Shown here: one piece after another, positions 10,587 through 53,525 of the stretch
How positions within the stretch are numbered: position 1 is the stretch's first letter
How the letters are laid out: each line of letters opens with the position of its first letter
Assembly: GCA_949317995.1 (NCBI GenBank)
Contig: OX439037.1
Location: 22,999,182-23,063,181 of the forward strand
DNA length: 64,000 bases
Source: Acholoe squamosa
Lineage: Eukaryota; Annelida; Polychaeta; Phyllodocida; Polynoidae
Reading direction: 5' to 3'
Made by a program: the position numbers and the translations under genes
Notes under the pieces: generated by a model
Seen by the model: the letters and a program-made list of their open reading frames with translations, nothing else
Database searches by the model: none
Told to the model about the DNA's origin: nothing

Positions 10587-10622
10587 AATGTTCTCTCTTT
10601 TTTTCTCTTTTGTAGGTAAGTA
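10587..10622 (+). promoter_or_regulatory. Recursive splice site RS1 (3'ss abutting 5'ss)
   Basis: An almost uninterrupted pyrimidine tract from 10590 to 10611 ends in TGTAG at 10615, followed immediately by GTAAGTA at 10616. A branch-point-like TGTAATG lies about 28 nt before the AG. The junction is therefore a full 3' splice site fused to a consensus 5' splice site with no exon between. In known recursive splicing the upstream exon joins at the AG and the regenerated GTAAGT is then used as donor for the next step. Of the three sites this one has the longest pyrimidine tract. Confidence 0.78.
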
Positions 10623-10658
10623 ATCCTTCAGAGTTACTCATGCGTAAAGCGGGTTGTG
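10616..10658 (+). other. Putative RS-exon 1 (43 nt)
   Basis: A donor-like GTGAGT at 10659 follows the RS1 acceptor and would close a 43-nt exon. A second donor, GTAAGT, begins four bases further on at 10663 and would give 47 nt. Neither length is a multiple of three. Frame 1 is open, frame 2 has TAA at its first codon and frame 3 has TAA at its second codon. Short cryptic RS-exons of this kind define recursive sites in flies and vertebrates and are normally skipped in mature mRNA. Inclusion would shift frame or stop translation. Confidence 0.6.
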
Positions 10659-10668
10659 GTGAGTAAGT

Positions 10669-11111
10669 CTACACATGCATCAGGGTTTTTCCTGATAACA
10701 ATGAGCATGGTGATTTAACTACTTTATTACCGCAGTCACTGAGATGTAAAGACATAGATTTTGGTCTGAGTATATATAATCTATTCTGAGTAATCGTGCT
10801 TTGAAACACCTAATATATTATTGTGCCTCTTAAATGGTTAAATAAGTAAACCCTCTCGCTGTATACCATTGCCCCTGGAAGTGATCTGTACCATGAGAAG
10901 TCAGGTGCTATACTTTGAAGCTCTCTAAGATAACAGAGCAGCTCCTAGAGCAGCTCACACAGAGCTGACCGGGTCATATCAATCAGTCCCGAGCTACTCG
11001 TCCCTGAGACACTGACCACCCCTCATTCTGCCTACTTCCCATTTCTCCCTCTCCAGCCCCAGTCTCATGGGAGCCCATTGAAAACATAGGCACCCCTCTT
11101 CACATTCTCAC
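10669..11111. other. No recognised feature after RS1
   Basis: AT-rich sequence grading into C-rich sequence near 11000. Nothing is supported. Confidence 0.45.
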
Positions 11112-11325
11112 TTTACCCTCCAAGGGCCACGTGCTGTCTCAAGGTTCATTGTTTTGGTTGTCATGGTGGTCCTATGCAATTTTGGTGATTCTGCTTGTAA
11201 GCACTGCATTGGTGCACAATACTGACCCGTCGGTACCTCTCGGCCCGGTAGTGTAGACTTGCCAGCGCTGCATTAATGCATCATGATGACAAATGAGCAT
11301 GAGCGTAATTCAGCCCTCAAAGATT
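11112..11325. repeat. Palindromic TTAA-type repeat, copy 3
   Basis: Left end TTTACCCTCCAAGGGC, inner AAGCACTGCATTGGTGCA and GCGCTGCATTAATGCATCAT, right end CAGCCCTCAAAG. Order and spacing match the family. Confidence 0.6.
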
Positions 11326-11519
11326 TGGCCATCCCCATCCTATAGCATGACCTAAAATTCCTCTAAGATAGAATAAATCTACCACAGTGATGGCCCCCAT
11401 CCGTCATGGACAGGGTCATCCATAGGTCGGATCTCCACAATCGTCCTCTAAACTCAATATCCCTTTTTATGCAGATTAAAATAATTTCCATTTTTGCCTT
11501 TTGTAAGACTGTAAGATGA

Positions 11520-11720
11520 AGGGTAATACTGGTGCCGCGCCCTCGCCGATTGATGTAGCGTCCCTGGCACGCCAACTACGTGACGGTCACGCCTACCAAG
11601 CCTTTCCGCTAGGTGGCGTCGTGTGTTATTTCCGGTTCCTGTTGGGCATGCACAGAGACAGATTGGCGTCAGGTCGGCGACGGGCCAATCTGTGCACAGG
11701 GCCGGTCTATGGTGGTCCAG
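11520..11720. promoter_or_regulatory. CpG-rich island-like patch
   Basis: Roughly 18 CpG dinucleotides occur in about 200 bp, against sparse CpG in the surrounding DNA. It holds a CTCF-like motif and an inverted repeat, ACAGATTGGC at 11658 and GCCAATCTGT at 11684. A plus-strand open frame of 73 codons covers it but shows no known domain. It could be an unmethylated regulatory element, an old transposon fragment, or an unrecognised exon. Confidence 0.4.
11606..11620 (+). promoter_or_regulatory. CTCF-like motif, forward
   Basis: CCGCTAGGTGGCGTC fits the core CTCF pattern of CC, variable three, then AGGTGGC. CTCF and its core motif are conserved in bilaterians. Binding here is inference. Confidence 0.45.
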
Positions 11721-11839
11721 GCTTGGAGGATGAATGAAGTGGTGGGACACAGGTCTCAATGGACCTAATCCCTGGACCTAGATATTGGCAGAGGGACTCC
11801 CCAGGCCCCACCCTGGGGTTTCCAGGTCAAATCAGGGCC

Positions 11840-12383
11840 TTAAGGTGGCTGGCGGGGATTGTTAGTTCAGCATTTGGACACCAGGGGTCTCATTACATTG
11901 TTATTATGGATAAACGAAATGTGCAAAATACAGGAAGGCTTGGCAAGGATTTGAACCCAGGACCTTCTGTGAGTAATGCAGAGACATTACACATGAGCCA
12001 TGGGGGCTGCTGTATATGACCACCTAGAAATCATTAGATGTCACTATTCTAACAATATTCTTACACTCATCATTTCAATCACCCAAAACATTAGAAAGAT
12101 GCATGGGACCCTATGTCAATATTGTATCTACTGAAAAGATATGCTGAAATTCTAAGTCCTGAAGGAGTTATACAAAAAAATAATTACTTTTGGATATGAA
12201 TCTGGGGATTTATGTGACAAATCACTATATGATCCTATATAGGGTTGAATCTTCTCTATCTCAAAAATAGGCATGGGACCCCCCTACTATTTTTGCACAT
12301 ATGAAAAGTACAAATCATGGGATTCTGGTGTGAATATGGCGAAAATTTAATTACTTTTAGTTTATCCCCGCTAGCCACCTTAA
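11840..12383. mobile_element. TTAA-flanked non-autonomous DNA transposon
   Basis: TTAA at 11840-11843 is followed by GGTGGCTGGCGGGGAT, and the complement ATCCCCGCTAGCCACC precedes TTAA at 12380-12383. The TIR is about 16 bp with one mismatch, and the body is 536 bp. TTAA target duplication is typical of piggyBac and Kolobok superfamilies; the termini look more like Kolobok, but this is not certain. There is no transposase. The body carries a tRNA-like module on the minus strand. Confidence 0.8.
11938..12009 (-). repeat. tRNA-derived module (SINE-like), antisense
   Basis: Read on the minus strand, TGGCTCATGTG resembles a Pol III A box, and about 40 nt later GGGTTCAAATCC is a perfect B box. 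Spacing fits a tRNA-derived promoter. It lies wholly within the TTAA element. Not a functional tRNA: no intact cloverleaf was evident by eye. Confidence 0.6.
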
Positions 12384-14162
12384 CAATGGCTTTCTGCCAC
12401 CGGTTTGCTAGTGGCCTGTCAAGGTGTGCGTGCTTTGGTGATTACTGAAACCCACCTGGCTGGACAGCAGTCTCAAAGCATTTCGTCACTCTGTTTTGTT
12501 CAGTGTGGGCAGTCTTACATTTTGGCACTTGAGCAGTTTGTCCCAATGAAGCCATTCCTGCATTGTGCCACAATGTACCAGCCTCCTCTCACATTCCGTC
12601 ATTCATTTAGCCATATATCACGGGATTGGTTCTCTAATAATTCCCTGGCCTTGCCCCACCCTCACCCTACACTTCCAATTAAACATAACAAAGTAGCACA
12701 GCGAACATTTGCGCACTCCCATTCTAGAAAGGAAAATGAAGAGGGAATATAAATGTATTGCTAAAGAAAATGCCCGTGTTTGCTGGCGTTGCACTGTACT
12801 TTCCCTATTCCCTATACATTGTAATATGGCTATAGGCTGATTTGCACAGTGTTCATGACTATAGTCTGTTGATGTGGAATATGCCAGCACTACAATGTAA
12901 GGCAGTAGTAATACTCAATATTACCTTCATTATTACACAATCGGACCTCGACATACACAGTTACTATGTACAGTAAGAATTTGATCAAGTTGTTTGACAA
13001 AGGAAGCCAAGCCCTCATTTTGATACTATTACCCAATATTGCCCATTGGCAATAGCATGAGGTCGGCTGGGCTCATATGTATTCATTCACGAACGATTAC
13101 TGTGTTATTCAATGTCCATATATCATGTGCCCAAATAAAAGACCTGTCAGAGACCGATCAATCATGGAAAACACTTAACTATTGCAACAGTATCTAAAAG
13201 TAAGGATATTCTGCTTGATTTCATATCAAACCAGAGATGAAATCCTAAAGCATGGCAGGAGACAAACTAAGATTTTTCTGCAATAACCCTGCCAGAGACC
13301 AGCCAATAATCATTGTACAGTAATATGAGTGCTTTTTTGTAGGTCAGACTACGTTGTTTCTGTCCTCCTGAAAGCCCCTGTAGTAAGTGTGGTTAATGAT
13401 TGAAGAGTGTAGAGTGCGCCCTACATGACCAGCTTTTGGTCTATGTGCCCCACTCAAACCCTAACCCCAAAAGGGAGTGGTGTAGAGAGGAGTGGGTGGG
13501 GTCCACCTGAGGTAGATGTACGAGGTGGTGGCACATTGTGGATTAAGTAGGATTATTGGATCGTTCCCCAGGATTTGCACACGCTGTAACACCCTGCACC
13601 CACAACTTCCAGTTGATGGGTGACCCTGTGGTAGCTCTTAGCTCTCACATGCGTCTTAATGGTTGTGACTAACTTATGGGGTCATATAGCCATGCTGAGA
13701 TTACATGTTAATGTTGATTGACTCGTGCACTTTGCTACAATGGCCAGGGTTCGTAAATGAATTGGTAGTGACTCTTTGCTGCATTAGGCTACACTATGTT
13801 AAATCATGTGGATTATCAAAAATTGACTGTAAAGTGCCATGAATCCGGATCTCCATGAAAGCTGGCCTCAATTGCAATTCAGTCAAACAAGCCTTCTAGT
13901 GTGAATAGATACACACTGCCTTATCTGCAGGATGCCCAGAAGGTAACTTCCAAAACCAGATTACTTCCCCCCTGCCAGACCTAAGATCTCCCTGAGTTCG
14001 CCAACCTCTATCCAGGGGTGGTCTAGTGGCTGACTTCTGTGGTGATATGTCAACCATATCTAATCTCTCTGGTGTGCCTTGTCCACGCCCACACCCTTTA
14101 TCTACAACCGCCGTATACCTTTGGTGTACTCTGACTTCTACTAGTCCTTGTTATCGTATGTC
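12384..14162. other. No recognised feature
   Basis: No terminus, tandem array or coding signal was recognised. Confidence 0.45.
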
Positions 14163-14380
14163 TGACCTCTAGTCCCACCACAAGGTCAGCCCAAGGTCAG
14201 GTCAATGTCACATCAAGCTGCCATCACAGACATAGTGATCCAGTCCTGGCACAAGGTAAGTTGGGTTTGACAGGCCGACCTTATAGGTCATAAGGTCATC
14301 ATATATAGAGGTCAAAGGGTCATGTGGATGCTGGCTACATGTTCACGGCTCTGACATTGATTACCGACTGGAGGTGACCT
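14163..14380. promoter_or_regulatory. Nuclear-receptor half-site cluster with DR5 and DR2 geometry
   Basis: Nine AGGTCA-type half-sites occur in 218 bp. AGGTCA at 14183 and 14194 form a direct repeat with a 5-bp spacer. Those at 14285 and 14293, and those at 14309 and 14317 (GGGTCA), form direct repeats with 2-bp spacers. Another lies at 14199, overlapping the DR5 by one base, and TGACCT occurs at 14163 and 14375. DR5 and DR2 are the classical RAR:RXR spacings. Chance expectation is about 0.1 site per 218 bp, so the cluster stands out, though a decayed tandem repeat could mimic it. Confidence 0.5.
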
Positions 14381-14778
14381 TGAGATTGACATGAACCCGT
14401 GATGATAACTCCCCAACTTGGCAAAACTACCACCTATAGTGAAGTAGAAGAGGTAATCGCCACACTGACTTATAGCAACTTAGTTGCTGCAGGAGTTGAA
14501 TGATGTAGCCAGGTGCTCATGAATATTCAACATACCGGGTATCTGCTTTTGCTGTCATTTTGATGTTTCAAATATAGTAAATAAGAAGTATGAATCTGTA
14601 TCTCGGTCAGAAATCACATGGCACCTGCATTTTGCCAGATATTTCTGATGCCCTTCGGCTTATACTATGGAAATAAAGGTGTAGTGAAATTTACACTCTT
14701 GCAAAGTAGAGTGAGATCAAAGTATGTGATAGCATGTAGGTGTGTTACGCAGCAGTCACCATCCTCATCACCTTTAAC
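14381..14778. other. No recognised feature
   Basis: Nothing supported was seen. Confidence 0.45.
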
Positions 14779-15002
14779 TTAACCCTCTCAGGATGGCACG
14801 GTGTATTTATGCTTAAATCAATATGTGCCTTTGTCGTCATGATGCATGGATGCAGATCTGGTGGGTGCTCGTCAGGGCTACTACATTCATGCCTACTGTC
14901 CAAGTCATCAAGCCAACCCTTCTGCATCTGCACACCACCACATTTGGGCATTATGAGGATAAATTTAAGTTCACCTGCCCATCATACGGTCCTTAAAGGG
15001 TT
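14779..15002. repeat. Palindromic TTAA-type repeat, copy 4
   Basis: Left TTAACCCTCTCAGGATGGCA, inner ATGATGCATGGATGCAG, right CATACGGTCCTTAAAGGGTT. This copy best shows that the family begins TTAACCCT and ends AAGGGTT, a piggyBac-like terminus. A 170-codon open frame runs through it but is not considered coding. Confidence 0.7.
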
Positions 15003-15488
15003 CCAACTTAACTCTACGTGTGGCTCGTGGAGTGCCAAAGGTCCCCATAACTCTCATGTACATCCTCTGTACAAGTCGGCTCATCATCCACTAACACGCA
15101 CACTGACATGTTTGGCCACAGACACGCCTCCCGCCTGGGGCCTGCTTCAGACCTTTGTACCTGTTAATGAATGGTCATTAGGACCTGGAGAAGGCTGCAG
15201 GGTGCAGGCACATCAAAACAGAACATCCCCACCCACGACTGTTTCACCTTAAATCCCAACTGTGTTGTCTCTGTTTATTGTAAGCTAGAGAAATCAGAAT
15301 AGATCTAAAGCTTGAAGCGTCACTTAGAGCTGTGCTGGTACACAGGTGATTTAAGAAAGATCTGAAGTGATATCAATTTATTATGTGATGTCTGACATTG
15401 TATACATACATACACGTCCTTCCTCTAGTCCAACGTTTCACGAGTTTATCCAGTGAAGATTGAATAATTCCACAATGTCCTTTGGTCA
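15003..15488. other. No recognised feature
   Basis: Nothing supported was seen beyond the tail of the chance open frame. Confidence 0.45.
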
Positions 15489-15595
15489 ATATGATGCATG
15501 AATACTGAAGCACAAGGCAAAGTCTACTCTCCAGGGCAGCAGCACTTGTGCATCATGCACAAAAGCATTAACTTTGTGCATCATTACAACAAAGG
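15489..15595. repeat. Palindromic TTAA-type repeat, fragment (copy 5)
   Basis: ATATGATGCATGAATACTG, GCAGCACTTGTGCATCATGC and TTTGTGCATCATTAC match the inner words of the family. Both ends are missing. Confidence 0.45.
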
Positions 15596-15699
15596 AACAT
15601 GAAACTGGAGACATTATACTGGGCTGATATGTTGTATATCTGTGATACTATATCAGGTGTTGAGTGTGGCTTCCACCTGAAGGGTATACATAGGACAGA

Positions 15700-15720
15700 G
15701 GGGGATGGGGTGGGGTGGGG
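15700..15720 (+). other. Canonical G-quadruplex motif
   Basis: Four runs of at least four G separated by one or two bases (G5, AT, G4, T, G4, T, G4). It is on the presumed transcribed sense strand, so it could fold in DNA or in nascent RNA. Confidence 0.7.
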
Positions 15721-16275
15721 TGACAGGTACATATAGCTACAGAATACAAGTGCATGAATACAAGTGCATACAAGGGCAACTTCAAAGAATCCCCAAATAC
15801 ATCTGACAGAGGGTCATATACTAGAAGGAGTGGATAGAGTGCCAAAGTATGGAGGTGATTACTAAAACTGAAAGAAGGCTTGGTATGACATAGACACATC
15901 CCTTTGATGCAGAAATACTGGTGGGGTTGCAGAGTGGATAATGGTTAATTAATGTAGCTTTAGTGTGACATCATAGCATGGAGACTGATGTGATTTTCTA
16001 TGTATGAGTCTCAGGGCAAAAACCTAGCTGATAACGTTTCATTGCCCACTAAAACTGTAATACCCTAAGTTGTGGTGACAAGAGTGAAAGTCACAGATTG
16101 CTTCAGAAACATGGCTGTGAACCTGCTGGGCTGGAATCTGGATTTAAATTATTCCTCTTAGCGTTTGGTGCACACAAATGATTCTTAGATACTTACACCG
16201 AGTAATTGGACAAAATCGACCCATTATATAAATGGCTTCACTATGTTTAACTCCCATCCCATGACCTCCCTAATG
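15721..16275. other. No recognised feature
   Basis: Nothing supported was seen. Confidence 0.45.
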
Positions 16276-16342
16276 GTATTGTAATAACTATGGTCCGACA
16301 ATAAACACAACAAGTATATACGGTATCAAGAGTATAGTGTTC

Positions 16343-16348
16343 TTTATT
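16343..16348 (-). terminator. LTR polyadenylation signal AATAAA
   Basis: Minus-strand AATAAA inside the solo LTR, downstream of its TATA box. It is antisense to the presumed host gene and so is not expected to end host transcripts. Confidence 0.7.
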
Positions 16349-16535
16349 CAAGGACCACAACCCATTCCACCCTGTGGGTTTAGGCACTCGCTCTGTTCTT
16401 CACTAGTTATCTGTTGCTGATGCCCGCTACTCCCTTCTCCTGATTCCGAGTCCCCGACTCCTTGATTCGCTCAGCGCTCTCGTCTGCTCGTGGTCTAAGA
16501 CACAGGTCAAAGACGACCGACCCACTCAAACCACT

Positions 16536-16546
16536 GCTTATATAGT
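16536..16546 (-). promoter_or_regulatory. LTR TATA box
   Basis: ACTATATAAGC on the minus strand, placed where an LTR core promoter should be. It could drive antisense transcription toward lower coordinates. Confidence 0.65.
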
Positions 16547-16620
16547 CCCTCCCGGCTGGGTGACATCATCCAGACGCTCCCCTATTGATCCTCAACCTTA
16601 TGATGTCACAACTCGCAAGC

Positions 16621-16634
16621 GCGCCCTCTCGTGG
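16621..16634 (-). promoter_or_regulatory. CTCF-like motif in the LTR, reverse
   Basis: The complement, CCACGAGAGGGCGC, is a very good match to the CTCF core. It lies in the U3 part of the solo LTR. Transposon-borne CTCF motifs are known in mammals; here this is inference. Confidence 0.45.
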
Positions 16635-16724
16635 AGACCCTAGGATCATTCCGCTTTCCGACCTCCCTTCCGCTTCCTACGAGCCACGCCCCCCACCCCC
16701 CTAGGAAGTTCCGTAATTATTACA

Positions 16725-17066
16725 GTATGTCACTTCCCTCATCCTGACCCCTGCTGTAGACAAGCCTTCATTGGTGCCGATCAGCCACCAATATGCCGTC
16801 CTAGCAGGCAATCACACCTGCCACCATACGTCCTAATATGACCACCTTGCCCTGCCCTCAATGCCCCTCCTCCCCTACTAACGCCCCCTACTGGCAATGA
16901 GCTGCACCTCATCTGCACAGGTTACTTCCGGTTCCGGTAATAGGGCAATGACGGCTTGTCCCATGAAGGCTGACATCTTGTTCTCTTGGGATGTCGCTGA
17001 TTCCCCAAAACAGGTTTCACCCTCCCTCCATCTACTATACTGGTGACTAGAAACCAAGTATAATAC
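16725..17066. other. Unique DNA between two elements, with a CTCF-like motif
   Basis: C-rich sequence. The complement of 16881-16896 reads TGCCAGTAGGGGGCGT, a strong CTCF-like match in reverse orientation. Nothing else was recognised. Confidence 0.4.
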
Positions 17067-17479
17067 ACCCGGGGGAGGTACTCACTATATGATGCTATCT
17101 CCCCACTGCCAAACTATCGACCCCCTGAATCTAGGCAAAATGACCGCTCCTCGACTCCTGTAGTAATCCACCGCCCCTAATTTAAGGGCATTTGAAGTCA
17201 CCACCCCTTAATTTCAAGGCATTTGAAGGGACTATACCTGAAATTTTTAGAGATAAGGACCCTTATTTGTACAGTAATAAGAAGATATTTACCACCCCCT
17301 ATTTTTGAGGGGGCACACAGAGGTATTGCCCTCCCTTTTTTGAAGTGCATACAGAGTTACCGCCCCCTATTTTTTAGGTGCACACAGTTACCGCCCCCTG
17401 CATTTTCGTCTGACCGCCTCCGCTTCTGGGGCCCGTTTGGCAGTCGGTAGCCTATTCTGAACTGAGTAGCCCCCCCGGG
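17067..17479. mobile_element. Non-autonomous DNA element with CCCGGGGG termini
   Basis: Left end ACCCGGGGGAGGTACTCA and right end TGAGTAGCCCCCCCGGG are imperfect inverted repeats. ATAATAC flanks the 413-bp element on both sides (17060-17066 and 17480-17486), a plausible 7-bp target duplication. The body has about eight irregular ACCGCCCCCT-like motifs, often followed by T-rich sequence and CACACAG. The superfamily is unknown to me. Confidence 0.7.
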
Positions 17480-17486
17480 ATAATAC

Positions 17487-18105
17487 ATGTCTTAAGTATT
17501 CTGGCGCTGCCATTGACAATGCAATCGATATGATCTAACCCCATTACTATCCTATGGGTATGCCACTGAAGGCAATGTCAGTTGTCAATGTGGGGAAGGT
17601 TTGGGGGAGAATTCATTATGGTGTTATGAGTGTGGGCGCTTGGTAACGTGATGGTCTAGTGTACATGGATAATACAGGGTTACCATGGAGATTAGGAGGA
17701 TCATCTCTCCATTGGCAGCAGGAGATAAGGTTGTATCTGCCAATGGGAAGCTGCTATCAGAGCCAAGCCTCTGATTTAATTGCTTCCAACAGAAGTGGTC
17801 ATGTGAATAGCTTTTGGCTGAATTACAACATGGCCATGATAAGGTTACCAGGATCATTGTTTGGGAAGTGGTGATGTAAGGGGATCGGGCTGGGTGACCA
17901 GGCTGAATAGACATCACTTCTTCCACAATCATCATCAGATACTAATGACATTACATAAGGGAATAACTCGGTTCTCCCTGGTTCATTTAGCCATTAATGA
18001 CTTGCATGTATGCCTAGCGTATTGTAATTGGCACTCGTGCTATAGTCAGTAGTGTTTTTGGAAATTGATGCCTTTTTCATTCATGCAATTCATCGCAATT
18101 TCGTG
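17487..18105. other. No recognised feature
   Basis: Nothing supported was seen. Confidence 0.45.
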
Positions 18106-18204
18106 CAGGTAGTTCCTCAATTTTTTATTTATTTTTTATTTTTTTTTGACATTGACATGCTGAGGTGCGGAGGTTCATCTTTTGTCCTCCAGGTAGTTCC
18201 TCAA
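18106..18204 (-). mobile_element. Retroposed insert with poly(A) tail and 15-bp target duplication
   Basis: CAGGTAGTTCCTCAA occurs perfectly at 18106-18120 and 18190-18204. The 69 bp between starts with a T-rich run of about 28 bp, which is an A-rich tail on the minus strand, then about 41 bp of non-repetitive sequence. A long perfect duplication plus an A-tail is the signature of LINE-type target-primed reverse transcription. The source RNA was not recognised. Confidence 0.8.
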
Positions 18205-18914
18205 ATGGATTCACTCCTACAATATTGCATGCGTATTTGAAAAGTCGCAGTTTGTGCTATCATCATCAACCTACAGACAGACAAGGTATGGGTTTACAAC
18301 CGCCAAACCCATGTTTATATACTTTACGACCAGAGGCTGTACCTTTCTGGTGGAGACAGCACGCCAGCAATTGCCAAACAATTTTATTTATGGGACTATA
18401 AACACAGCTGCATATGCTTGTATACATGGGTTGGAGTTGTGGAACACAAAAAAAAGCAATTAGAAATAAGTTTTCTGCTCAAGAATAGCTCAGGCATATT
18501 ATGTTTTAGTTTTATGTGGGTTAGCATCACAAATGAGAAATCTATATTCTGATAGTGACCATTGAGTATTGTGTGGTATTTATATCAACACGCCTACAGA
18601 AAGCCATTGGGTTTCTCTTAATGGGTGATAGAGAGGACAAAACACACACAATTACGTTCTTTATGGTTATTGATAATAGGCCCCCTCTTGAAAATACTGC
18701 AAAGAATTGGTTTCCAATAACGGACTCCGCCTACTAGAAGCTAGTACTTCACATATAATATTCCGTTTCTCATTCACAAAGCTCACATAGATAGCTGTAG
18801 TAATACCAATTGTGCAGTAACCATTCTGTTTCCATGAAAAGTTCATCTAGTAATGCAGTGCATACAGTGAGCAGTGATAGCCTGATGAGAGCCCGGCTTA
18901 CCAGCATTCATTCT
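18205..18914. other. No recognised feature
   Basis: Nothing supported was seen. Confidence 0.45.
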
Positions 18915-19138
18915 AAAGACCCTGAGAGTGCCCTCCAATGGCCGCATGATGCCTCCAGGTTCATGTTTCTAGGTCTTCATGATGCACTGTCAATGGTGCA
19001 TTATGCAGACCCTCTCAGGAGTAACCTCCCCCCAGTCAGAGTGATGCAGGCTGGCGATTTGGCTTGACAACGCAGCATGATCATAACGAGAAGTGTGCAT
19101 ACAGTAATGCATTATATTGTGCGGTCCTTGCTGGGTTG
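18915..19138. repeat. Palindromic TTAA-type repeat, copy 6
   Basis: Contains GGCCGCATGATGCCTCCAGG, TTCATGATGCACTGTCAATG and TGGTGCATTATGCAGACCCT, and ends GCGGTCCTTGCTGGGTT. Diverged at the left end. Confidence 0.6.
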
Positions 19139-19580
19139 TATAGGGATACTTAGAGTACGAGGCAGTGATCCTGTCCATTGCCGCCCCGCCACAGCCAATC
19201 AAATGTTTTATGACAGTCTCTAAATAAATCACATGGCATCATAGGCAGTTGCCCAGCAGGACCCCAGGGCCACTCAGAGTAGCTCGGGTCTCATCCCCCC
19301 ATTGGAAGCTAGATTTACTGAGACAACTCTCACAGCCTGCAAGAAGGCACAGAAAAAGGGACAGACAAGAGGGTGGGAGATATTTCATTTTCAAAACTGT
19401 CCGCCTTTATCCTTGTTAGAAGCTCATCTTCCCGTCTTGTCTCGCGTCCAACTCCGATCAAGCAAAGGCCTCAAAACCGGTAAAGACTTGGAACGTCGTT
19501 TCCAGTGATTGTCCAACAGTGTTTCCTGCCTTCAAATTCACAATGTGCCAAGGGGCTCTTCATATAAAAGGTGTGACTAG

Positions 19581-19845
19581 CCCTTCAAACACCGCATAAT
19601 GTCCAGCACTATGATGTCATTTGGTTGTCAGGAGGAATGAATGCTGCCCTGGTGAGTCTAAACCATGGCTGCATTCATGCATCATGGTAACCTTATAGGT
19701 TTTAGAGACATTCCCAAAGGGTCGGCATGATGCATCAAAACAGTGCATGCAAGTAGGGCGCCGCAAGTAGGCGCACCAGCACTGCATTGTTGCATCATGG
19801 CAACAAATGAACAGGAAGCTTGAGATATCCTGCAAACCCTAAAAG
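19581..19845. repeat. Palindromic TTAA-type repeat, copy 7
   Basis: Left CTAGCCCTTCAAACACCGCA, inner GCTGCATTCATGCATCATGG and CAGCACTGCATTGTTGCATC. This is a fairly complete copy without an intact TTAA. Confidence 0.65.
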
Positions 19846-20092
19846 GACTAGAGCCACGGGAGAATTGTTACGAGGTAGCAAGGCTTGGGAGATGATGTTA
19901 CCGCAGGTTTTCAGGCACCAATCGGGAGTTCCCTAAGTAGATTTGAGCGGCACTCTGGTGTTGGAGATGGGGAAGCTGTCTGTGGTGAAGCACGAGGTGG
20001 GGTGGAGCTCTATTGGAATGGAGGCTACAGGCTGGGGGCAGTACCGATATAGGGGTAGAGCAGGCTGGTTACAGTTCCATTGAGAAGGCAGC

Positions 20093-20252
20093 TTAACCCG
20101 TTTAAGGACCGCATTGTACCCAGAGGTGCTTGTTCTTGTTGTGTTTTCACGGTGCATCAATGTATTGCCGGTGAGTACACGCGCCAGCACTTCATTAGCA
20201 CTTGGCCCATCAGCACTCACCCCAGTATCTATACGACCTCTGATTAAAGGTT
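20093..20252. repeat. Palindromic TTAA-type repeat, copy 8
   Basis: TTAACCCGTTTAAGGACCGC at the left, inner GGTGCATCAATGTATTGCCG, right end CTCTGATTAAAGGTTT. Confidence 0.65.
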
Positions 20253-24177: not shown

Positions 24178-24230
24178 CTCTTCTCCTCATCCACTAACCC
24201 GAGATCCTGGTCCTTCTAGGATTCATTCAC

Positions 24231-42475: not shown

Positions 42476-44362
42476 GCTTATATGGGGACGTTAGGTGGGG
42501 ATTGAGAAGCAGGGGCAGCGGAAGGGCCCCTGATGGTAAAAGAAACCGGAAGTAGCTTTTTTCTCCACTGAGAGACAGAATAGAGGTGCTGTACCCTCGC
42601 TCAATATCCCCCTCAGCGATACGGCTAAAAACAGAAAACCGACCCCAGGCTTAAAAACACCTTAGGAGGAAACGATGGGTACTAGCCTAGGCGAACGTAG
42701 GATAACACTATCTGATTTCTTACTTCCCATAAAGCTCCCTCGGGTCAATAAGATTGACTAAGTTTGAGATAGCCCAGGTAGTGAGTGTCATTTTAAATGC
42801 TAAGGTAGGTCTATGTTGTGTGTACATACAGTTGTAACACAGGAGAAAAAAGAGAAATATCTGCCAAGGTTTCAACACTGATAGATTCCATGGATTCTCT
42901 CACACTTTACTTGCCAAGGCATATTTGTCTTTTCTTAGATAATTGAGCATCACTCCCATCCGGCCACTAGTTCTACACCACTACCTGTCTACCAGTTTAG
43001 ACATCTTCTTCCCCATCTTCACATCCCCACCTCCATTCAGAAATGTCCCCCTTTCTTCACCACTTTCACACCCTAAAGACCAACCTGGATACCTCCCCTG
43101 TCACCCTGGGTGTTACTGCTGATACCATAGACTGACGTTCACTGTTTGAAGTCCAACACCTCCCTTGAACACTGTTGACATCAAGATCGATAAGCCGTAA
43201 GGCGTGAAAAGCTGCCACAACAGCCCCTTGGTGCAGGAGTCAATCCTATGGCCTTCTTGCCGATTACTAGGGATCGGTAGGCCTTGGGCATAATTACAAC
43301 AGAACCATAACCCTGGATATTAAATCGCAAGCTGATATTTTAATCCATTTTGCTTTGCTTTGTGATGTATTTACATATGCCATGGCATAAGGCCAGCATT
43401 AAAATACCAGTGGATGAGGTGATGTGGCAATTAAGTGTAAACAATATAATAACATATACTGGTGGTCGATATATAGAGCTACTATGAGCTATCTTGACCT
43501 GGTATGTAGTCTTAGCGGAATGTTCACTATAAAATAAGATGGAGGATAGAGAAAAGCATAGAATGAACACAGGGCGAATGTAAATGTGAATAAACCAGGC
43601 AAAGGGAACCAAGCTGATCAGGCTACCTGTGAATATCCATTTTGCCTTGTTCATTCACAAAAACTTAAATGTGGAAGGAGAGGGAGAAAGCTATTTGATA
43701 AATTAGACCAGAAGGGCGCATCATTTAAAAACTAGATTATAGCCCCCCCCCTTGTAACTGACGGTGATTAACATACAGATATGCTGAGGTTTCAAGATAA
43801 TTCCTCATCCTTATATATATACGGCCCCTACTAGTATACTATCTATATGGCCTTAGCGTGTTCCTTGGTGGCCCGACCCCTGCTGAAGCTGATACCTTGC
43901 AAGATAAGGACTGATAACAGCGAGCTGATGGGTACCACATATTACGTAATGCACCCTGAAAAGTCGACACTGAATGAAATGATTTTTCTCATTGGTCAAT
44001 AATGTATCCCGCTAAGTCGGAATAGATAGATTGACAGGAAGGGTCGACATGTTTACAGAAAACATGCTACTGTAGCATGTACAGCATGTGAGGCAGGTTG
44101 GCAGGGCCTTCCACAGGTGGTCCAGGTCAGAGCAGCCAGGTTCATGTATGGACAGCTGTGGCCACTTGGACACAGGCCTTTGGCTCCTACCAACCAAGGC
44201 AATGGTCCATCCACGTCTAGAAAGAAACTGGACGTATCATTCATACCCTATGAATACTCGATCACTACATCATTGCAGATTAGTAGCTCGGTTAGAAACC
44301 TCCTCATTCTTTTAAGAGTATACTTCATAGTGAATATTAATATTGTAAGCATAAAGGACAGG
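42476..44362. other. No recognised feature
   Basis: A pyrimidine-rich patch lies at 42960-43090, and a CATGCTACTGTAGCATG palindrome near 44063. Nothing else is supported. Confidence 0.45.
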
Positions 44363-45251
44363 TACACTGCAAAAATGGTGATTAGATTTTAAACATGTTT
44401 AGGTCTAAACACGTTTAAAACCTAAACATATAGGTCAGTTAGGTGTATCATCGACTACACATTTAGGAAATAAACACTTTTATTCTAACTACATAAACAT
44501 TTACGCTAAACATGTTTAGATGTTTAGAGTTGAAACAGTTGAATAATAGACCTGTGTTTAGATTTAAACATCAATATGTTTAGATAGTTGGATGTTGAAT
44601 CCACACCAGGTAGCAGCACTACCTTTGAATGGACTATCTGCACACAGTTATAATCAATTGTTGTGACAAATGTCCCAAAATCCCATGTTTATCATGGTTT
44701 CATTTCATAGAATGTCATGTGAATAGAAAGGGCAATAGAAAATTGACTAGATTCACCTTATACCACCACCATTAGCATAAAATAATCAATAAGCTCCATG
44801 ACTGACACCTATTTGATGTTATTCTGGAATGGATAAGGCAATTTCCTTCCTGCCAAGCTGTTGTACTTTCTCAAGTCTCTCATTCTGATGCAGTGTGTAA
44901 TACATGTACATGTATATATAGCTGTGGCTGACATCTTTGGAGACTTTGACAAGTAAATACCTGCTGATGTACCCCCCCAGTAAATGAGAAAACAAACAAA
45001 ATATATCTCTTTTTTTTTAATGCATACATGTCTGCAAACCATAACTCTCCATCAAATCATTTAAACACCTAAACACAAAAATTCATAGATATCTAAACAC
45101 AAAGTTTTAACCTAAACACCTACATTTCTAAACACTTGAGCTAAGCACATTGTTTGGCTAAACATGTTTAGGAAATTAATGTGATTACAAAAACGTTGCA
45201 CGAATATGTTTAGAATTGTGTTTAGGATCTAAACACCATTTTTGCAGTGTA
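44363..45251. mobile_element. TA-flanked DNA element with TAAACA/TGTTTA arrays
   Basis: CACTGCAAAAATGGTG at the left and CACCATTTTTGCAGTG at the right are perfect 16-bp inverted repeats, flanked by TA. The outer 200 bp on each side contain over twenty TAAACA/TGTTTA words, some as AAACATGTTTA palindromes. The centre (44580-45050) lacks them. These look like repeated transposase-binding sites of an 885-bp non-autonomous element. Superfamily unknown. Confidence 0.8.
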
Positions 45252-46852
45252 TGTAATAACTTTGTCGATTAAATGGTTTTATGTAGTTGTTCACCTTATC
45301 AGGAGTTTTTCACCAGGGAGCTCTGGATGCAGGATAAGACCCCCTGTGTTTTGTGTACTCTCCCATGTTAAAGTGGCTCTATGTATATGGGTATGTGCAA
45401 AGAGTGGAAGGTTAAGTAGCTGCAGCACTGATGAACTGTGTGCCTTTGAATGGTGTTGTTTCCCTAACATGTAACGTAGCTAAGAAGAAATATAGAACTT
45501 GTGCAAACCTTAATTTTCCTGCTGACATTCTTTGTTTGCTATGAACCATCACGTGTTAACATTGTGAAACAGCTTTAGTTAGGAGGTGGAAGGAAAGGAG
45601 CTTTCTATCACAGATTCTTTGAATTAAACTGAACATACATTAAGGCAAATTCAGGTCTATGTAGGTTAGTGTGTTCTATAGTCTCCTGGTATTTTGAGAA
45701 AAAACTTTCTGTAGCCTGATACAGCATATCAATCAATAATGAATTGAGCTAGCCAAAATGAATAAACTAGACTAAAGGTAGAACTGGACGGCTGAGGGGA
45801 GGCGATTTGAGATTTTTCATATTGCTTGTCACAAAAGCAGCTGTGTGCCTTTAGCTACTTCCATTATAGAACCACTTCTCAGTCCGATACTCTAGTGCTT
45901 TAACTCAGCAGGGATCCATCCCCAAACCACCTTACCATGAATCCCAGCCATTCACTGCGCTGCTACTCTAAGTTTAACATAAGCAGTGTTGAAGTGACAT
46001 AAGCCATGGCCTTTTCACCTGTAAAACTCTTTAGCTACAACTAACTGTTTGGTGAGGTATCCTGATAGTTTGGAATTTCCCTCTTCCCTTTGAGCAGTGT
46101 GTAGGCGGTGGGAGGTCTCAAAGTCAGTGAATAGGTGAAGACAAAATATACCTCAGCTCATAGCTACACAAAGACCATACGTTAAATTCCAATAGGGGGA
46201 AAAAGGGGAAGACAGCCTTCCTGAATAACCTCATAACATCAGATGGATCCATGGAGAACATATTCAGGCATTGAGACCACCCCAGGGGGATACAGAGAAT
46301 ACACAGAAGTTTCAGACGTTTTCATAGTGAATAGTGTCTTTTAGAGACTCTGACTAGGGTGTTCTATGTACAAGCCGCAAACATTTTTCTAATTAGGTTT
46401 GCACTGTGGGGAGCCAACCGTGAGGCCTCCAGTCGGTGTTGTAGATGTGTATTTGCATGTGCTTACCTGTCTCTCACCTGCAAAGGTGGGCCTTTCAAGA
46501 TGTGAAAGGCCTGCGCTAGGTGATGTGCCCTGTTGACCTCTGATTGTTCCCAGACCTACCCCCTACCTTAGTAGTATTGTCTAACATAGGGTAGACTGGT
46601 GAGTCATGATTTACCGTTAGATCAAGTCAAAGGGCTGGTGCTGCCGTGAGAAGCTTTTTTATGCATTTAAAGTGGATTACTACAGTGTTAACCAAAAAAG
46701 GAATGCTTTTCATTCATTTGATCAGCGGGTTCTACCATAGCTTGAATTTAAAAGAAAATCGAAATACCAACTAACATTGTTGAATTAAATGGACTGGGGT
46801 TGATTCTTGTTCATTTTGTTCATAAAGGAGTTCACGTACCATAAGGTCTTTT
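45252..46852. other. No recognised feature
   Basis: Nothing supported was seen. Confidence 0.45.
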
Positions 46853-46883
46853 TAGCCGAGAGGCATACATGCCTCCTCGGCTA
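46853..46883. repeat. Short inverted repeat (hairpin)
   Basis: TAGCCGAG pairs with CTCGGCTA, and inside it AGGCAT pairs with ATGCCT, with an almost continuous stem. The function is unknown. Confidence 0.75.
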
Positions 46884-47148
46884 CATTATAACTCCCACCA
46901 CACTACCCCAGGTGTTCCATGGTCGTCGTCACAAAAACGATTGTTTTTTTTCTGTACTATAGATCAGCTACTAAAATCCATGGATTGGACTGATACTGGT
47001 CCGTTTGGCAAGTCTTTTATTAATAGTAATACTACCAAGTAGATTCTTGTCCTCACATTAAACTAGTACTGGACCTGGCAAGTCTAGTGTTATCACACCT
47101 CCTAGCGTGCATGCAATGTCCCCTTTAATTCCCTTAACAGTTTGGTGC

Positions 47149-47283
47149 AGATCTAGGCGCCTCCAAATACCTGTAGTGAATTGTTATTGTCCCAGGTCGT
47201 TCTGGGGCGGGCTGATAGCTTCTACACCAGATCTAGGCGCCTCCAAGTACCTGTAGTGAATCGTTTGTCCCAAGTCGTTCTGT
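47149..47283. repeat. Tandem duplication, 80-bp period
   Basis: AGATCTAGGCGCCTCCAA at 47149 recurs at 47229, followed by CCTGTAGTGAAT and GTCGTTCTG in both units. Two imperfect copies. Confidence 0.85.
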
Positions 47284-48512
47284 TCATTGATGTACTTATT
47301 AACTATGGACTATTTGTCAGCAATTAGTTAATAGAAAAACATTTATCACAATTAACCGATCGGCTATTACACCTTTGGTGTACTTTTAACTCACAATACA
47401 CATAGTTATATCAAAAATTAGGCAAAAATAGACCTGTAATCAATCTCTTAAATACAAATCTCGCCATGCGTGATCTCGTAACTTGAATTTCATCCTTTAC
47501 CTGCGTGGTAATACATTCCTTGTGAAAGTGGTAGGTTCTTAGTGTACTGTTCTTTCATATAAAGGTAGTGTTCAATTACAGTATGTGACCAGTCAAGCCA
47601 AAACACCCCTCTGCAGGGAAATTCATTATTAAAGTTCATTAAAGATCTTTAAAATGAGACATCATTGGGTTAAATATTCCTAGTAGTTATGTCAGAACCC
47701 CTCCTTGAACATAGGTCGTTCTTCACATCTGAAATCGATGATTAGGCTCTAAATACATTATAAACCATTATAATGTCTAAAAACACAATAAATCAGCCTT
47801 TTTCATAAAAAATTCATAATAATATGGTGCTTTTTATCACAGATTTTGATCTAGAAGGAATTTTCATTTCTGTTTTCAATTTTGGGTTTCTGGTGAATAT
47901 CCCCAAAAACTGGCATAAAAATCTGCAAATTTCAATTATTGGAATGGTTGTAGTACACTGTACATGTAGAACCACCTGACAGTGACATAACACATGCATC
48001 TCATATCCCAGGGACTGACTTGATTAACTGGTACATGATCTAGACTTTGGGAAGACACAGGTATGACCACTATCAGCTATGTCTAACTGATACAGGTAGT
48101 AGACCACCTCCCTTTTGCTATTGTTTAAATCTCTTTGTATTCTGACTCCGAAATATTCCCTGAAACTATGAACCCTCCTTATCCAACTCCTGGATTGGCC
48201 ACTGAATTGCACAGTGAATGGCAATATTCTTATTCAGAGTATCAAACTTCTCACACAGGATATTCAATCTTATTCTACTTAGGCCTGAGCGGCGTGACAG
48301 ATAATTTTTGGATGACCACATAGAACACAACCAGTGGTACCAACACGTGCCTACTCACACACGTGTGACAGGTGCAGATGGCACATGCACCTGCCCCTGA
48401 CCGGTCAGTGGAAGTGCCCTTCTTTCTGTCACAGTATCAGACATGCTAGCATGGCACGCATGGACCTCTGGTGACCTGAGTCTTGGTGATGCTAGTAGCC
48501 AGGACAGGTAAG
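47284..48512. other. No recognised feature
   Basis: AT-rich. Nothing supported was seen. Confidence 0.45.
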
Positions 48513-48745
48513 ACGAGTTCTCGTGGTAGATGGAATAGGGATGGAAACTGTTAGTCCTGGTAATAGATGGAATAGGGATGGAAATTGTGAACAGAGTACT
48601 GGTGATAGATGGAATAGGGATGGAAACTGTTAATCCTGGTAATAGATGGAATAGGGATGGAAATTGTGAACAGAGTACTGGTGATAGATGGAATAGGGAT
48701 GGAAACTGTGAGCAGAGTCCTCATGGTAGGTTGAATAAGAATGGC
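48513..48745. repeat. Minisatellite with alternating 37/42-bp units
   Basis: TAGATGGAATAGGGATGGAA starts at 48527, 48564, 48606, 48643 and 48685, with a degenerate unit at 48727. Spacing alternates 37, 42, 37, 42, so the real unit is a 79-bp dimer, duplicated after its two halves diverged. Confidence 0.9.
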
Positions 48746-49187
48746 GGCTCATGACTACTTCTGGAGACAATATTGATATCACAGATTCCATGAGTCTGAG
48801 CACGCGGTGGCCATTTGTAATCATTATGATGACATGTTGGCTGATGAAAGAAAACTGCCCCATTCTGTCAAAATACATTTTTCAAAATCATAATTAATTT
48901 TCATGATTTGCTTTCTGAATCTGGATGGCTTTTTCAGCCAGGGATGTTGCTCTTAAATACAGTTTAATATAATTGTCGTGGCCCTTGTTTGACGTAGGAT
49001 TCTATCCTGTTTGATTTGTAATTTTGAGCTTTAACATGAATCTTTACCATAATGTGTAGGACCTCATATACAGCAAACAAGAAGATTGGCGACTTTCCAA
49101 TATAATCCATGATCCAAACCAAGAAACAATATTTCGTCTGAAAATGCAAATACTATTGAACAGGCCCCTGGAATCAAAATCTACAAA
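48746..49187. other. No recognised feature
   Basis: Nothing supported was seen. Confidence 0.45.
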
Positions 49188-49444
49188 TTAACCCTTTATG
49201 GTTGCATGATGCCTAGAGATTGGTGTTCCTTTATTGCCCTGATGCACCAATGCAGTTCTGCTGGGGGTCCTCGCCAGCACTGCATTGGTGCATCAAACTG
49301 ACCCTTCAGGAGTGTATCAGCCCCCAGAGGGTCGCCATGATACATAGACAAAGCTCTGCAGCGTACCGGTAATTCGCCAGGGTTATATTCATGTATCATA
49401 ACGACCATGGAGAATTTTGCATTAAAGGTTTTATGCGGCCCTGG
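49188..49444. repeat. Palindromic TTAA-type repeat, copy 12
   Basis: TTAACCCTTTATGGTTGCAT at the left, inner CTGATGCACCAATGCAG and its complement-like GCACTGCATTGGTGCATC form a foldback. It ends near TTATGCGGCCCTGG. This is one of the most complete copies. Confidence 0.7.
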
Positions 49445-51837
49445 AACCAGAAGGCACACATTAAAGATGTGTTCACACCTGGAGTGGTTTGATAGCGTGT
49501 GTGGTTGACTATGGCATGAGTCATACAGGAGGGTGGGAGGTGTGCATAGTAAATGGGGGTGTGGTTGGAGGGGGAACTGACCACTTAAATACCTGGTCAT
49601 CCAGGTGTATTCTGGACGCCAGACTCCACTCCTAAATACCTGGGTCTTGTGAGGGTAGTACTATAAGTGTGTGGTCTGGTCAGCCCTGGGGTTATGGGTC
49701 ACCCATCCATGGCACGCCTACCATATGTGTAGTGTTTCTAAAAGGACATTGAGGTGTGTGGGGCTTAATAAAAAAATGGGGGGGGGGGGTGTTCTTGTAA
49801 CAATGCCAGCAGCTTCTTCGCCTGACAGTATATACAAATACACAGGTATCAAATTCTAACAGGATCTTCCCAGTTGAGCATCATACCGATTCAGCAATGG
49901 TGTTCTAACTCTTCAGGTATTCCTAATCAGGTGAATGGGTAATGAATGTCCCCTTATACAAAGTGTATAGGGCTTAGTATGAACGTCCTGTGGGTCCACC
50001 ATTTTGAGTTTTGCTGGTTGAGGTAAACCCCACTGATAAGACATACCATGATGGGTACCTTGTCCCTGGGTAACACCCACTGTCAGGGACATGCTGGTCC
50101 CATGTTATCAATTCTTTGCATGTCGCCAGAACAAGCTCCAGACCTGCTTCCAGCCAATAGTCTCAAACAAGACTAATTGATCAAATTTTGTGTTTCTGAC
50201 AAACTGATGGAGGAACACATTATCCTGAGATTCCTAACTAATTTCATTACGTCCTTGGCATAAGCTTTGATAATACATTTGTTAAAGATTACAAAGGAAT
50301 GCAGTATAAGGCAACTCTTTTAAAAAGTCCTTAGAATGGAAACTTTACAGTGAAAAGCTCAGTCTAGGAGATAGGAAGATCCTAGACATATTTACATACA
50401 TAAGTGGCACCTGAATACATTCAATGTATTTTACGGTGACAAAGGTAGGGCTGTGATCTGTGGAGTAAGGTAGGGCTCAGTCAGTGGTGAGGGGAGGACT
50501 GACGTGGGGTACTAATGATAGACGCTGAGACGCATGACTGTCAGGTTGTGAAAACAACCAGAGCCCTAACCTTAGGACTTATCACCTCGCCCATCTATCT
50601 ACTCTTTCCGGTTCACTCCCAGTATACCCTCCGGAAGGCAGGTAAAAAATATATGTTGGCAGAAAAAAACCCACAACATTTCCCCCCCCCCTTGTCGAGT
50701 TATTTTCTTCCCACCCCACCATCACCTTTCTGGTATCATGCACCCAGTCCTTCTCCTCTCCTACACTTGGCCCCTCATTTGTAGCCAATGACCTGTGAAT
50801 GTTGAATCAGCATGTCCCTGTTTCTGCTCTGTTTGTCTCAGTATTTTCAGGGAGATGGAGAGCACTGACAAGTATTCATTGCTCTATTAAGAGGGAATAC
50901 TCTTACATTATGCCCTTTATGGTCAGAGAGAATTGAATCAACAATTACGGTAAGACCCGGTACCTCCAGCCCAGATTGTCGTGGCAATTATTTTATTTTA
51001 AATTAGTTCTGTCTGAGGATTTGATAAACATTGTCGTGTCTACTTGCTTTGGAGGTTACACTTTATGATTTCCTAAAGTTTAAGTTATAGACTCAATTGT
51101 AGACTGCGTTGGGCATTGCAGAAGGGCTTTCAATACACATATCAGAAGAAAGACTGATAATGCGGACTTAACAATGCCATACCTTTTTTTGTACAAAAGA
51201 AGTGGGTGTGAAGAAAATGAGCCTTATTAAGATCAAACAGACCACAGCGGAGATAAGTTGTTACACGTACAATTTATTTTGTTAATCTTGTGTGTTTTTA
51301 TTAGTGTGTTATCGACCCCATGTCTAATGCCTATTTCAGGAGATGTGTTAAAATAAGTCCTTTGGAGGTATGATTTAATACTAGGATATATTTTGAATTA
51401 CCACCCATATATATAGAGGTGTGTGTTTCAATAAAAAAAACACTATGGCTGTGTCCAAAGGCTTGGCGCCTGTCATTGCCTGCAATAGGACAGCATTGCG
51501 TGCCCCAGGCTGTCAAGGCCAGTGTTAAAGCTGGCGGAAATGATGGTTACCCCCTGGGGAAAAGACTGCATGATCGCGTTATGAGATCTATATGGAACAG
51601 GATACTTTGTAAATAGTGGACTAGTTGAGCCTAAGCACATTTAAAGTGCTTTAGAGTTATCAGTGAGCAGCTAAACTGAAAGGATGCGCCATGTAGGATA
51701 GTACAGATCATCTTTCCTGCTAGGCTGTTCGTGTTTTGTCTTCCTTTTCAATATGAGTCACTGCCTCTGAATGTGCTTTGGAATGTGTGTAGGGGTTTCT
51801 TTTAGTTAAACATTTAAGGATTGCATTATTCCCATTT
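49445..51837. other. No recognised feature
   Basis: Poly-G at 49781 and poly-C at 50686 are the only low-complexity runs. No coding signal was recognised. Confidence 0.45.
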
Positions 51838-51975
51838 GTCGTCATGACAATCATGTATTCATGTCTCATACCGACCCTTCAGAGGTATGGCATCCACAAT
51901 ATTCTTTAATAAGCACTACGCTTGTGCATCACGAGACCAAAGGTACTTGTATACAAGCATTATGTGACCCTGAAA
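51838..51975. repeat. Palindromic TTAA-type repeat, fragment (copy 13)
   Basis: GTCGTCATGACAATCATG, ATACCGACCCTTCAGAGG and TTGTGCATCACGAGACC match inner words of the family. Ends are absent. Confidence 0.45.
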
Positions 51976-53065
51976 GGTGTCATCACTGATGAGTACTGGA
52001 GCATGAGAATTAAGTCGTTTCTGTTGTAATTTGGGTAACAATGATAATGGAGTGTGAACACACAATGAATCCGATGAACCTATTTGTAAGCGGATCTTCG
52101 TGTGTTAAAGTATAAATACAAACCTAATTAAAAAGAGATCCAACCCAGTTTAACTATGATAGGGTTAGTCAACATTAAGACAATTTTAATTGACAAATAT
52201 ACTTAAGTTTATTTTAAATACATAGGTTGTTATCGAGTTGATCGTAAACATAGCCTCGCTGTATATATGTTGGTTAAGGATTTAAGCAGCCGATCATCAG
52301 GGGAAATCAATTGGTAAAACAGAATTGTTCCTTCCACGCCTTGCCAATTTCCTATCTTATCTATGTACCAAATATCAGATGCACTGGAATTACATAACAA
52401 TAACATTGTAAGATACAGTGAATGGATGTGTACTGTGGGGACTTTTTGTCAACATGAACCTGTGAAGTAGATATACAATATTGACACCATATAAAGATTC
52501 CAGGTACAGGACCAAGTCAGGGGAACCACCTGCAGGCTTGACAGGACCCACAGTCTCATGTTCACAAGTTGTATTTTTCCCCAGACTAATCCATAGCCAC
52601 ATTCAGCTCTGACCTTATTCAAACATTGCCCAGGGTGAAAGTAGGAAAAGGGTTCTTGCCTCTTCTCCACGTAGAAGGTGGCTGATGAATGCGGTCTTTG
52701 TAACATGTGTCAATGAAGTAGACATAGAGGAAACAATAAATTGTATACCTAGAGGAAGGAAAACTTTGGAACTTTGGTAAAGTTAATGTAAACAGCCCCT
52801 TATGTGTGTACCTTTGTTGGAGGAAAGAGAATCATGACTTGTTGATATTCACTTGAGTTCAAAAAATGCTTTTAATGGTCATTCACACATTGTAAACATC
52901 TGACAAGAAATGTTAGTGCTCTGGATTCATATTTCATTTTTGATATATCCTTCCTCCATGATGCACATTATTTATCAATAACACATGTTGTAAATATGAG
53001 AACAGTTGTACAGATCTTGGTTATCATGTATTCATGTATAACCCTTAAATGATTATAGATATTTT
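51976..53065. other. No recognised feature before RS3
   Basis: AT-rich. Nothing supported was seen. Confidence 0.45.
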
Positions 53066-53102
53066 TACTTAATACATGTATCTTTATTCTTTCAGGTAAG
53101 TA
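53066..53102 (+). promoter_or_regulatory. Recursive splice site RS3
   Basis: ACTTAAT, an excellent branch-point match, lies about 24 nt before a YAG. The tract TCTTTATTCTTTCAG ends at 53095, and GTAAGTA starts at 53096. It is 21,650 bp downstream of RS2 and on the same strand, so the three sites form a near-regular ladder. Confidence 0.8.
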
Positions 53103-53135
53103 CTAATTTGCTGCTTGTCGTGCGCCAAGGTCCGG
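53096..53135 (+). other. Putative RS-exon 3 (40 nt)
   Basis: A donor GTGAGT at 53136 would close a 40-nt exon. Frame 1 is open, frame 2 starts with TAA and frame 3 meets TAA at its third codon. The length would shift the frame if included. The exon is GC-rich relative to the surrounding DNA. Confidence 0.58.
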
Positions 53136-53525
53136 GTGAGTTCTGAAAGGGGTTGAAATCTCCCTTAGCTTCTTTCTCATCTCTAGATCTGAGGAATTTG
53201 ATTACCAGTCTCCAATCTGGATAATAGCTATGTTACATACTTCTTTTATATTGTTATCACTTGTGGGCAACAGTGAATGAGGTTTATACTGGTTTTGCTT
53301 AACTAAAATGGCAAAACCTTGCCTGTGAGGGCCAGACTAATTAAGCCTGGCTTTACACTAACAGTAAAGGTCGGTTTCCTAGAGTCTCACACACTGTCGC
53401 TTCCTGACTAGACTGCATAGCAGACATTGCATTGTCACATAGGGATCTGAATGCCTGGGACCCTGTATATAGGGACTGACGAGACTTCAGAGAAAAGGGC
53501 CTGTGTTAAAAAGAGAAAAGGTACA

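Follow-up and report, generated by a model that had tools for sequence, protein, structure and literature searches.

Five candidate recursive splice sites with short RS-exons in the first intron of an NHS-family gene of Acholoe squamosa

The question raised by this locus is whether a long intron of an invertebrate other than a fly carries the signals needed for its stepwise removal by recursive splicing, and if so, how many sites take part and how they are built. The stretch analysed, referred to below as the window, comprises 64,000 nucleotides (nt) of the polychaete Acholoe squamosa (contig OX439037.1; C3:22999182-23063181), and the search was extended beyond its edges into the genome of 1.48 Gb. 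A preliminary description had proposed for the window an evenly spaced ladder of three recursive splice sites, each a 3′ splice site (acceptor) directly followed by a 5′ splice site (donor). It is proposed here, with a probability of roughly 0.88, that these three belong to a set of five ratchet points, each with a short recursive splicing exon (RS-exon), in intron 1 of a gene of the NHS/GUK-holder family. The paired sites, the second donors that close the RS-exons, the strand, the host assignment by homology, the intron bounds and the phase are all read from the DNA sequence.

The YAG/GTAAGTA junctions (the slash marks the splice junction) lie exactly where they had been placed, at 10616, 31446 and 53096, all on the plus strand and separated by 20,830 and 21,650 bp as previously given; the minus strand, said to hold no comparable site, indeed contains no YAG/GTAAGTA. 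With a generic acceptor-plus-donor matrix the three score 24.2, 20.1 and 20.0 bits, respectively, and the runners-up in the window reach 13.9 bits on the minus strand, without a donor GT, and 13.0 bits on the plus strand. Order-3 Markov simulations (40 sequences of 64 kb) yielded a single site that reached the lowest of these three scores, a mean of 0.025 per 64 kb. The word GTAAGTA occurs three times on the plus strand of the window, each time in junction context, and six times on the minus strand, never after YAG. The acceptor of the first window junction, which is site 2 of the five, consists of a pyrimidine tract and 3′ splice site at 10587..10615 (TTTTGTAG; 14.6 bits), with the nearest upstream AG at -52. 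At sites 3 and 4 a branch-like word, a pyrimidine tract and the 3′ splice site CTTTCAG occupy 31418..31445 (A at 31424) and 53068..53095 (A at 53072). Such branch-like words had been described upstream of all three junctions; this stands for 31446 (strict yUnAy at -22) and 53096 (-24) but not for 10616. In the native junction of site 3, CAGGTAAGTAT, all 11 positions pair with the 5′ end of U1.

Each window junction has a second strong donor downstream, on which the preliminary description was silent; the exon-pair scan places it at +43, +42 and +40 nt. The putative RS-exons defined in this way are 43 nt long at site 2 (10616..10658, its first seven bases, GTAAGTA, being the recursive 5′ splice site; a stop in the host frame, frame-shifting), 42 nt at site 3 (31446..31487; open and in-frame with the host) and 40 nt at site 4 (53096..53135; again with a stop in the host frame and frame-shifting). 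They are closed on the same plus strand by GTG/GTGAGT at 10659..10664 (9.5 bits), GTG/GTAAGT at 31488..31493 (9.8 bits) and CGG/GTGAGT at 53136..53141 (10.7 bits). Donors of at least 9.4 bits number 22 on the plus strand of the window, and the chance that all three junctions have one at +30..+60 is 1.5e-6. Behind the other window acceptors of at least 8 bits such a donor is rare (1 of 59 on the plus strand, 1 of 76 on the minus strand). A tandem junction with a downstream donor is the anatomy described for recursive splicing of the RS-exon type at fly intronic ratchet points such as those of kuz, Bx and Ubx, where a downstream donor marks the end of a cryptic RS-exon some 50 nt long (PMC8605326).

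A gene model by homology places the whole window (1..64000, plus strand) inside intron 1 of a putative NHS/GUK-holder-family gene. This intron of 157,491 nt is bounded at C3:22945899-23103389, which corresponds to window positions -53282 to 104208. Exon 1 is open (MPFAKNSIEP..., with the ATG at C3:22945628), lies within a CpG-rich stretch on the plus strand and ends with ...ACAGTCC/GTAAGTAA. Going downstream on the plus strand, the next coding exon recognised, C3:23103390-23103655, is taken as exon 2, and the two join in frame in phase 1 (...AVTVPVGDLTSF...). The Pfam family NHS (PF15273) is matched by the exon after exon 2 (E 6.8e-7; 28.1 bits, cut-off 27) and weakly, below the cut-off, by exon 2 itself (E 0.017); exon pieces of 1512 and 48 residues gave no Pfam match. 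For the 1512-residue exon 30 homologues were found, the best of which, with 66% identity over the query, carries no name. NHS-like names are given to two of the 30, from Mactra and Dreissena, and the other labelled homologues are uncharacterised or hypothetical proteins of Mya, Dreissena and Lineus. Because the host exons lie on the plus strand, transcription of the locus from the minus strand is rejected. The earlier proposal of recursive sites in one long plus-strand intron of a non-fly invertebrate gene therefore holds as far as sequence can tell. Within the window no Pfam match to a coding exon was obtained in the three plus-strand frames, a search that exons without a Pfam domain, or non-coding ones, would escape; the minus-strand scan, covering about 70% of the frames, all of it within the first 59 kb, gave one match far under the cut-off (E 0.16), and in a search of the window for structured RNA and tRNA nothing reached threshold. 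A Hirudin match from the Pfam comparison of the host exon pieces (E 0.12), which with 13.2 bits stays far below its cut-off of 25, is attributed to chance.

Over the whole intron two further sites join the three of the window. Site 1, recovered by the genome motif search at window -1836 on the plus strand, has a second donor at +43 and so a 43-nt RS-exon; site 5, at window 81404 on the same strand, was found in the 40 kb read downstream and has the donor AAG/GTAGGA (8.4 bits) at +42, which gives an RS-exon of 42 nt. The second-donor offsets of sites 1-5 are thus +43, +43, +42, +40 and +42, each donor scoring at least 8.4 bits. Both outside sites fit the length of 40-43 nt learnt in the window, an agreement with a chance of about 8e-6 when the donor cut is set at 8.4 bits, site 5's own score. 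The five are the top five junctions of the plus strand of the intron (19.5-23.7 bits), followed by one of 13.6 bits; the best on the minus strand reaches 15.9 bits (in an intron version 142 nt short). At 19.4 bits or more the intron holds five sites on the plus strand and none on the minus strand, and 60 simulated introns hold none. All five RS-exons start exactly with GTAAGTA. Elsewhere in the intron, acceptors of at least 9 bits rarely have a donor of comparable strength at +38..+45 (2 of 93 on the plus strand, 2 of 100 on the minus strand), and a spread of RS-exon lengths of 3 nt or less arises in five random genome-wide draws (54 values, this ladder excluded) with a chance of 0.5%. The RS-exons of sites 3 and 5 have 42 nt and are open and in-frame with exons 1 and 2, adding 14 residues each; those of sites 1, 2 and 4 introduce a stop or a frameshift in the host frame.

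A similar combination of signals was searched for in the whole genome. The pattern required the motif and, placed so as to give an exon of 27-57 nt, a second donor GTRAGT; the length distribution obtained is thus bounded by the pattern itself. It gave 37 + 48 = 85 matches, against 4 + 3 = 7 for the reversed control. From the 85, 23 satellite-like rows and four of one repeat family were removed by hand, which leaves 58, four of them from this ladder, while the seven of the control were left unfiltered. Among the 58, neighbours less than 200 kb apart share the strand in 16 of 16 cases, where 0.45 such pairs would be expected, and in 13 of 13 once this ladder is left out; below 400 kb, 17 pairs are on the same strand and one on opposite strands. 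An over-strict first repeat filter, which kept 32 of 62 rows, gave eight same-strand pairs and one opposite pair below 400 kb. The median RS-exon of the 58 is 43 nt, and 17 of 58 lengths are multiples of three. The genome-wide rows are partly related in sequence (e.g., a pair on C9) and thus not all independent, and host genes were examined for this ladder alone. One further cluster, at C15:34447420-34551169 on the minus strand, has four same-strand sites, 19.4, 54.3 and 30.0 kb apart, whose RS-exons measure 41-44 nt; by eye these RS-exons are alike, as if copied from each other.

It is proposed that the five sites would act in the following way. As transcription passes a site, the strong acceptor and the donor some 42 nt behind it would be recognised jointly as a tiny exon (exon definition). 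Joining of the upstream exon to this RS-exon would rebuild a donor from the end of exon 1 and GTAAGTA, and the rebuilt donor would then remove the RS-exon together with the next segment; repeated stepwise, the process would reach exon 2. Transcription of the locus, use of the sites, the order of the steps and skipping of the RS-exons are what we infer here from the arrangement described and from published work on flies and mammals.

Several observations weigh against this reading. The matrix behind all scores is generic and was trained on no data from this species. In the 60 nt upstream of 10616 a strict yUnAy branch word is missing. Taken without the second donor, the motif shows no enrichment in the genome (48 matches versus 67 in the reversed control), and for this reason it is the second donor that seems to separate candidates from noise. 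Of seven bare-motif loci whose donors were examined, a strong donor at +40..+43 is present only in the two from this intron; the other five lack it, their best donor being one of 8.5 bits at +25. A tension lies in the competition between donors. The rebuilt donors TCC/GTAAGTA score 4.3 bits, with -7.1 to -7.6 kcal/mol in the duplex with U1, and the RS-exon donors 8.4 to 10.7 bits, with -9.1 to -11.5 kcal/mol, so that at all five sites the RS-exon donor is the stronger of the two, by matrix as well as by U1 duplex energy. This is the reverse of the rule reported for insects and mammals, where the recursive donor is generally, though not by definition, stronger than the RS-exon donor, so that the RS-exon is skipped (PMC8605326). 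It results from the end of exon 1, whose TCC leaves the rebuilt donors dependent on the intronic GTAAGTA; with the native YAG in place of TCC the recursive donor would be the stronger one by matrix at all five sites.

Since the rebuilt donors are weaker, some inclusion of the RS-exons, leaky or regulated, is predicted. The tension around TCC might be relieved if the GTAAGTA core were enough, if an alternative upstream exon were used, or if the RS-exons were partly included. An unlikely extension of the last option is that recursion proceeds against donor competition and that the RS-exons serve as regulated poison exons (sites 1, 2 and 4) and in-frame 14-residue cassettes (sites 3 and 5), setting the amount and kind of NHS protein. 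All five sites have an A at +7, as has the donor of exon 1 itself; in a genome-wide subset 11 of 32 sites have it. If this extension is true, the invariant GTAAGTA would be co-adapted to an exon end unable to pair with U1. The weak end of exon 1 offers a natural case in which to test whether RS-exon skipping depends on donor strength only. The window also contains, at 16201-16801 (C3:23015382-23015982), the sole CpG-richer stretch listed, with an observed/expected ratio of 0.80 and a G+C content of 0.50; the host gene might have an alternative start here.

Other explanations of the same junctions have to be considered. Ordinary short cassette exons of 40-43 nt, in which the first seven bases read GTAAGTA by accident, would account for the strong acceptor and donor flanking each RS-exon, for the open 42-nt RS-exons of sites 3 and 5, in-frame with exons 1 and 2, and for RS-exon donors that score above the rebuilt recursive donors. 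However, ordinary exons have no reason to start exactly with GTAAGTA, as all five do, and three of the five would shift the host frame or bring a stop into it, which makes this explanation very improbable. Chance or base composition, i.e., splice-like words in a long non-coding stretch, is suggested by the commonness of pyrimidine-AG/GT words, by the bare motif, no more frequent than in the reversed control, and by the five of seven bare-motif loci devoid of a strong donor at +40..+43; yet it would have to produce five sites of at least 19.4 bits on one strand, with zero on the other and zero in 60 simulated introns, and a second donor behind each of the five, with the sites outside the window following the length rule of those inside. 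We regard it as extremely improbable. The third possibility, copies of a mobile or tandem repeat carrying a splice-like junction, draws on repeats of this kind that the genome does contain: a satellite, on C2 and further contigs, and a dispersed family. The neighbourhoods of the five sites (600 nt each side), though, have 14-40 nt in common at the site, and beyond it no more than a few weak matches of 12-33 nt (E 0.25 to 0.88); the window sites fall outside all 11 direct-repeat families and outside the 25 inverted pairs listed out of 46. We regard it, too, as extremely improbable.

The preliminary description had further proposed that the ladder is kept even by selection on step length, and that this would be new. 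The two gaps in the window differ by 4%, and two random gaps are that alike about 2% of the time. The complete intron, though, consists of segments of 51,446; 12,452; 20,830; 21,650; 28,308 and 22,805 nt, i.e., from 12.5 to 51.4 kb, with a coefficient of variation (CV) of 0.46 that 6% of random placements equal in evenness; a division into near-equal steps is thus not borne out. Subsets picked post hoc look more regular: the four inner gaps (CV 0.27) are as even in 3% of random placements and so beat 97% of them, and the last five segments (CV 0.24) are as even in 0.7%, beating 99.3%. Other same-strand neighbours in the genome, counted to 200 kb, lie 8 to 174 kb apart. The near-equal gaps seen at first are due to where the window edges fell, and the same edges fixed the number of sites at three where the intron holds five. 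Selection on step length is accordingly improbable here, and its novelty is unsupported, because in flies recursive segments have already been reported as non-random, intermediate and "bite-sized" (PMC6110457), so that such selection would not be new in kind.

If, as preferred here, the five sites are ratchet points with short RS-exons, they can be compared with known systems. With Drosophila ratchet points they share the tandem acceptor/donor in a long intron, the strong pyrimidine tract, the downstream donor and RS-exons that are mostly out-of-frame; they differ in RS-exon length (40-43 nt versus about 50 nt in the fly) and in rebuilt donors that fall below the RS-exon donors. The segments, 12-51 kb here, contrast with a fly mean of 9.1 kb (PMC6110457). 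Vertebrate RS-exons are likewise defined by a downstream donor, and the competition between the rebuilt and the RS-exon donor sets the outcome (PMC6224609, PMC8605326); about ten efficient intronic recursive sites were reported for human (PMC6224609), compared with five candidates in one intron here. Outside flies, ratchet-point (RP) sites have been reported, by computation, to be enriched in the large introns of sea urchin, honey bee, beetle and mosquito (PMC2773006). That survey has in common with the present case the motif class and the sense-strand excess; it counts motifs, whereas here the host gene, the exact intron, the second donors and the reading frames are specified. The density of 3.2 per 100 kb (five in 157 kb) exceeds the 2.2 of the fly and the 0.5-0.8 of sea urchin, bee and beetle, but the scoring differs and this intron was hand-picked. 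In a paper on bees, the exon under study is said not to serve as a recursive substrate (PMC8553928). In a literature search whose coverage left most subscription papers aside, no paper was found on recursive splicing in molluscs and none that linked recursive splicing to Nance-Horan or GUK-holder. The mechanism is known, and motif enrichment beyond Diptera has already been published (PMC2773006). The intron described here would be a sharply defined and testable recursive intron outside the groups with a printed enrichment (flies, mosquito, bee, beetle and sea urchin; PMC2773006). The data suggest that an RS-exon design like that of the fly exists in this invertebrate, and that introns of this type can be recognised in DNA alone by their two-donor pattern.

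Some additional observations concern the surroundings of the host gene and the repeats met in the search. The upstream neighbour on the plus strand is SUPT3H, since hand-joined exon pieces from C3:22888890 to about 22933118 match the SPT3 homolog (E 4e-65). A junction CAG/GTGAGTAT of 21.3 bits lies at C3:22847940 on the plus strand (window -151241), followed at +40 and +44 by weak second donors. About 1 kb separates it from the CpG-rich stretch C3:22845182-22846782 upstream, and 41 kb from the first SUPT3H coding exon found downstream; it is perhaps a recursive site in a 5′ intron of that gene. A satellite-like repeat of CTACAGGTAAGTAGG words, which resemble tandem acceptor/donor pairs, is located at C2:10.943-10.956 Mb and also on C6, C10, C13, C14 and C17. 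This repeat makes up most of the roughly 100 matches listed out of 388 + 1429 with another genome-wide pattern, and 23 of the 85 rows with motif and second donor. On C8:58967820-58973905 (plus strand) six copies of TCTTTTAGGTAAGTA follow each other about 1.2 kb apart, a tandem repeat bearing the motif. Within the window, 22666-23740 and 28776-29571 are direct repeats, 91-100% identical and about 6 kb apart; between them, up to about 29 kb, no Pfam domain was found in the three plus-strand and three minus-strand frames scanned, and they are possibly the ends of a non-autonomous element. Finally, 36498-36980 of the window is a tandem repeat with a 69-nt unit in seven copies, 98% alike.

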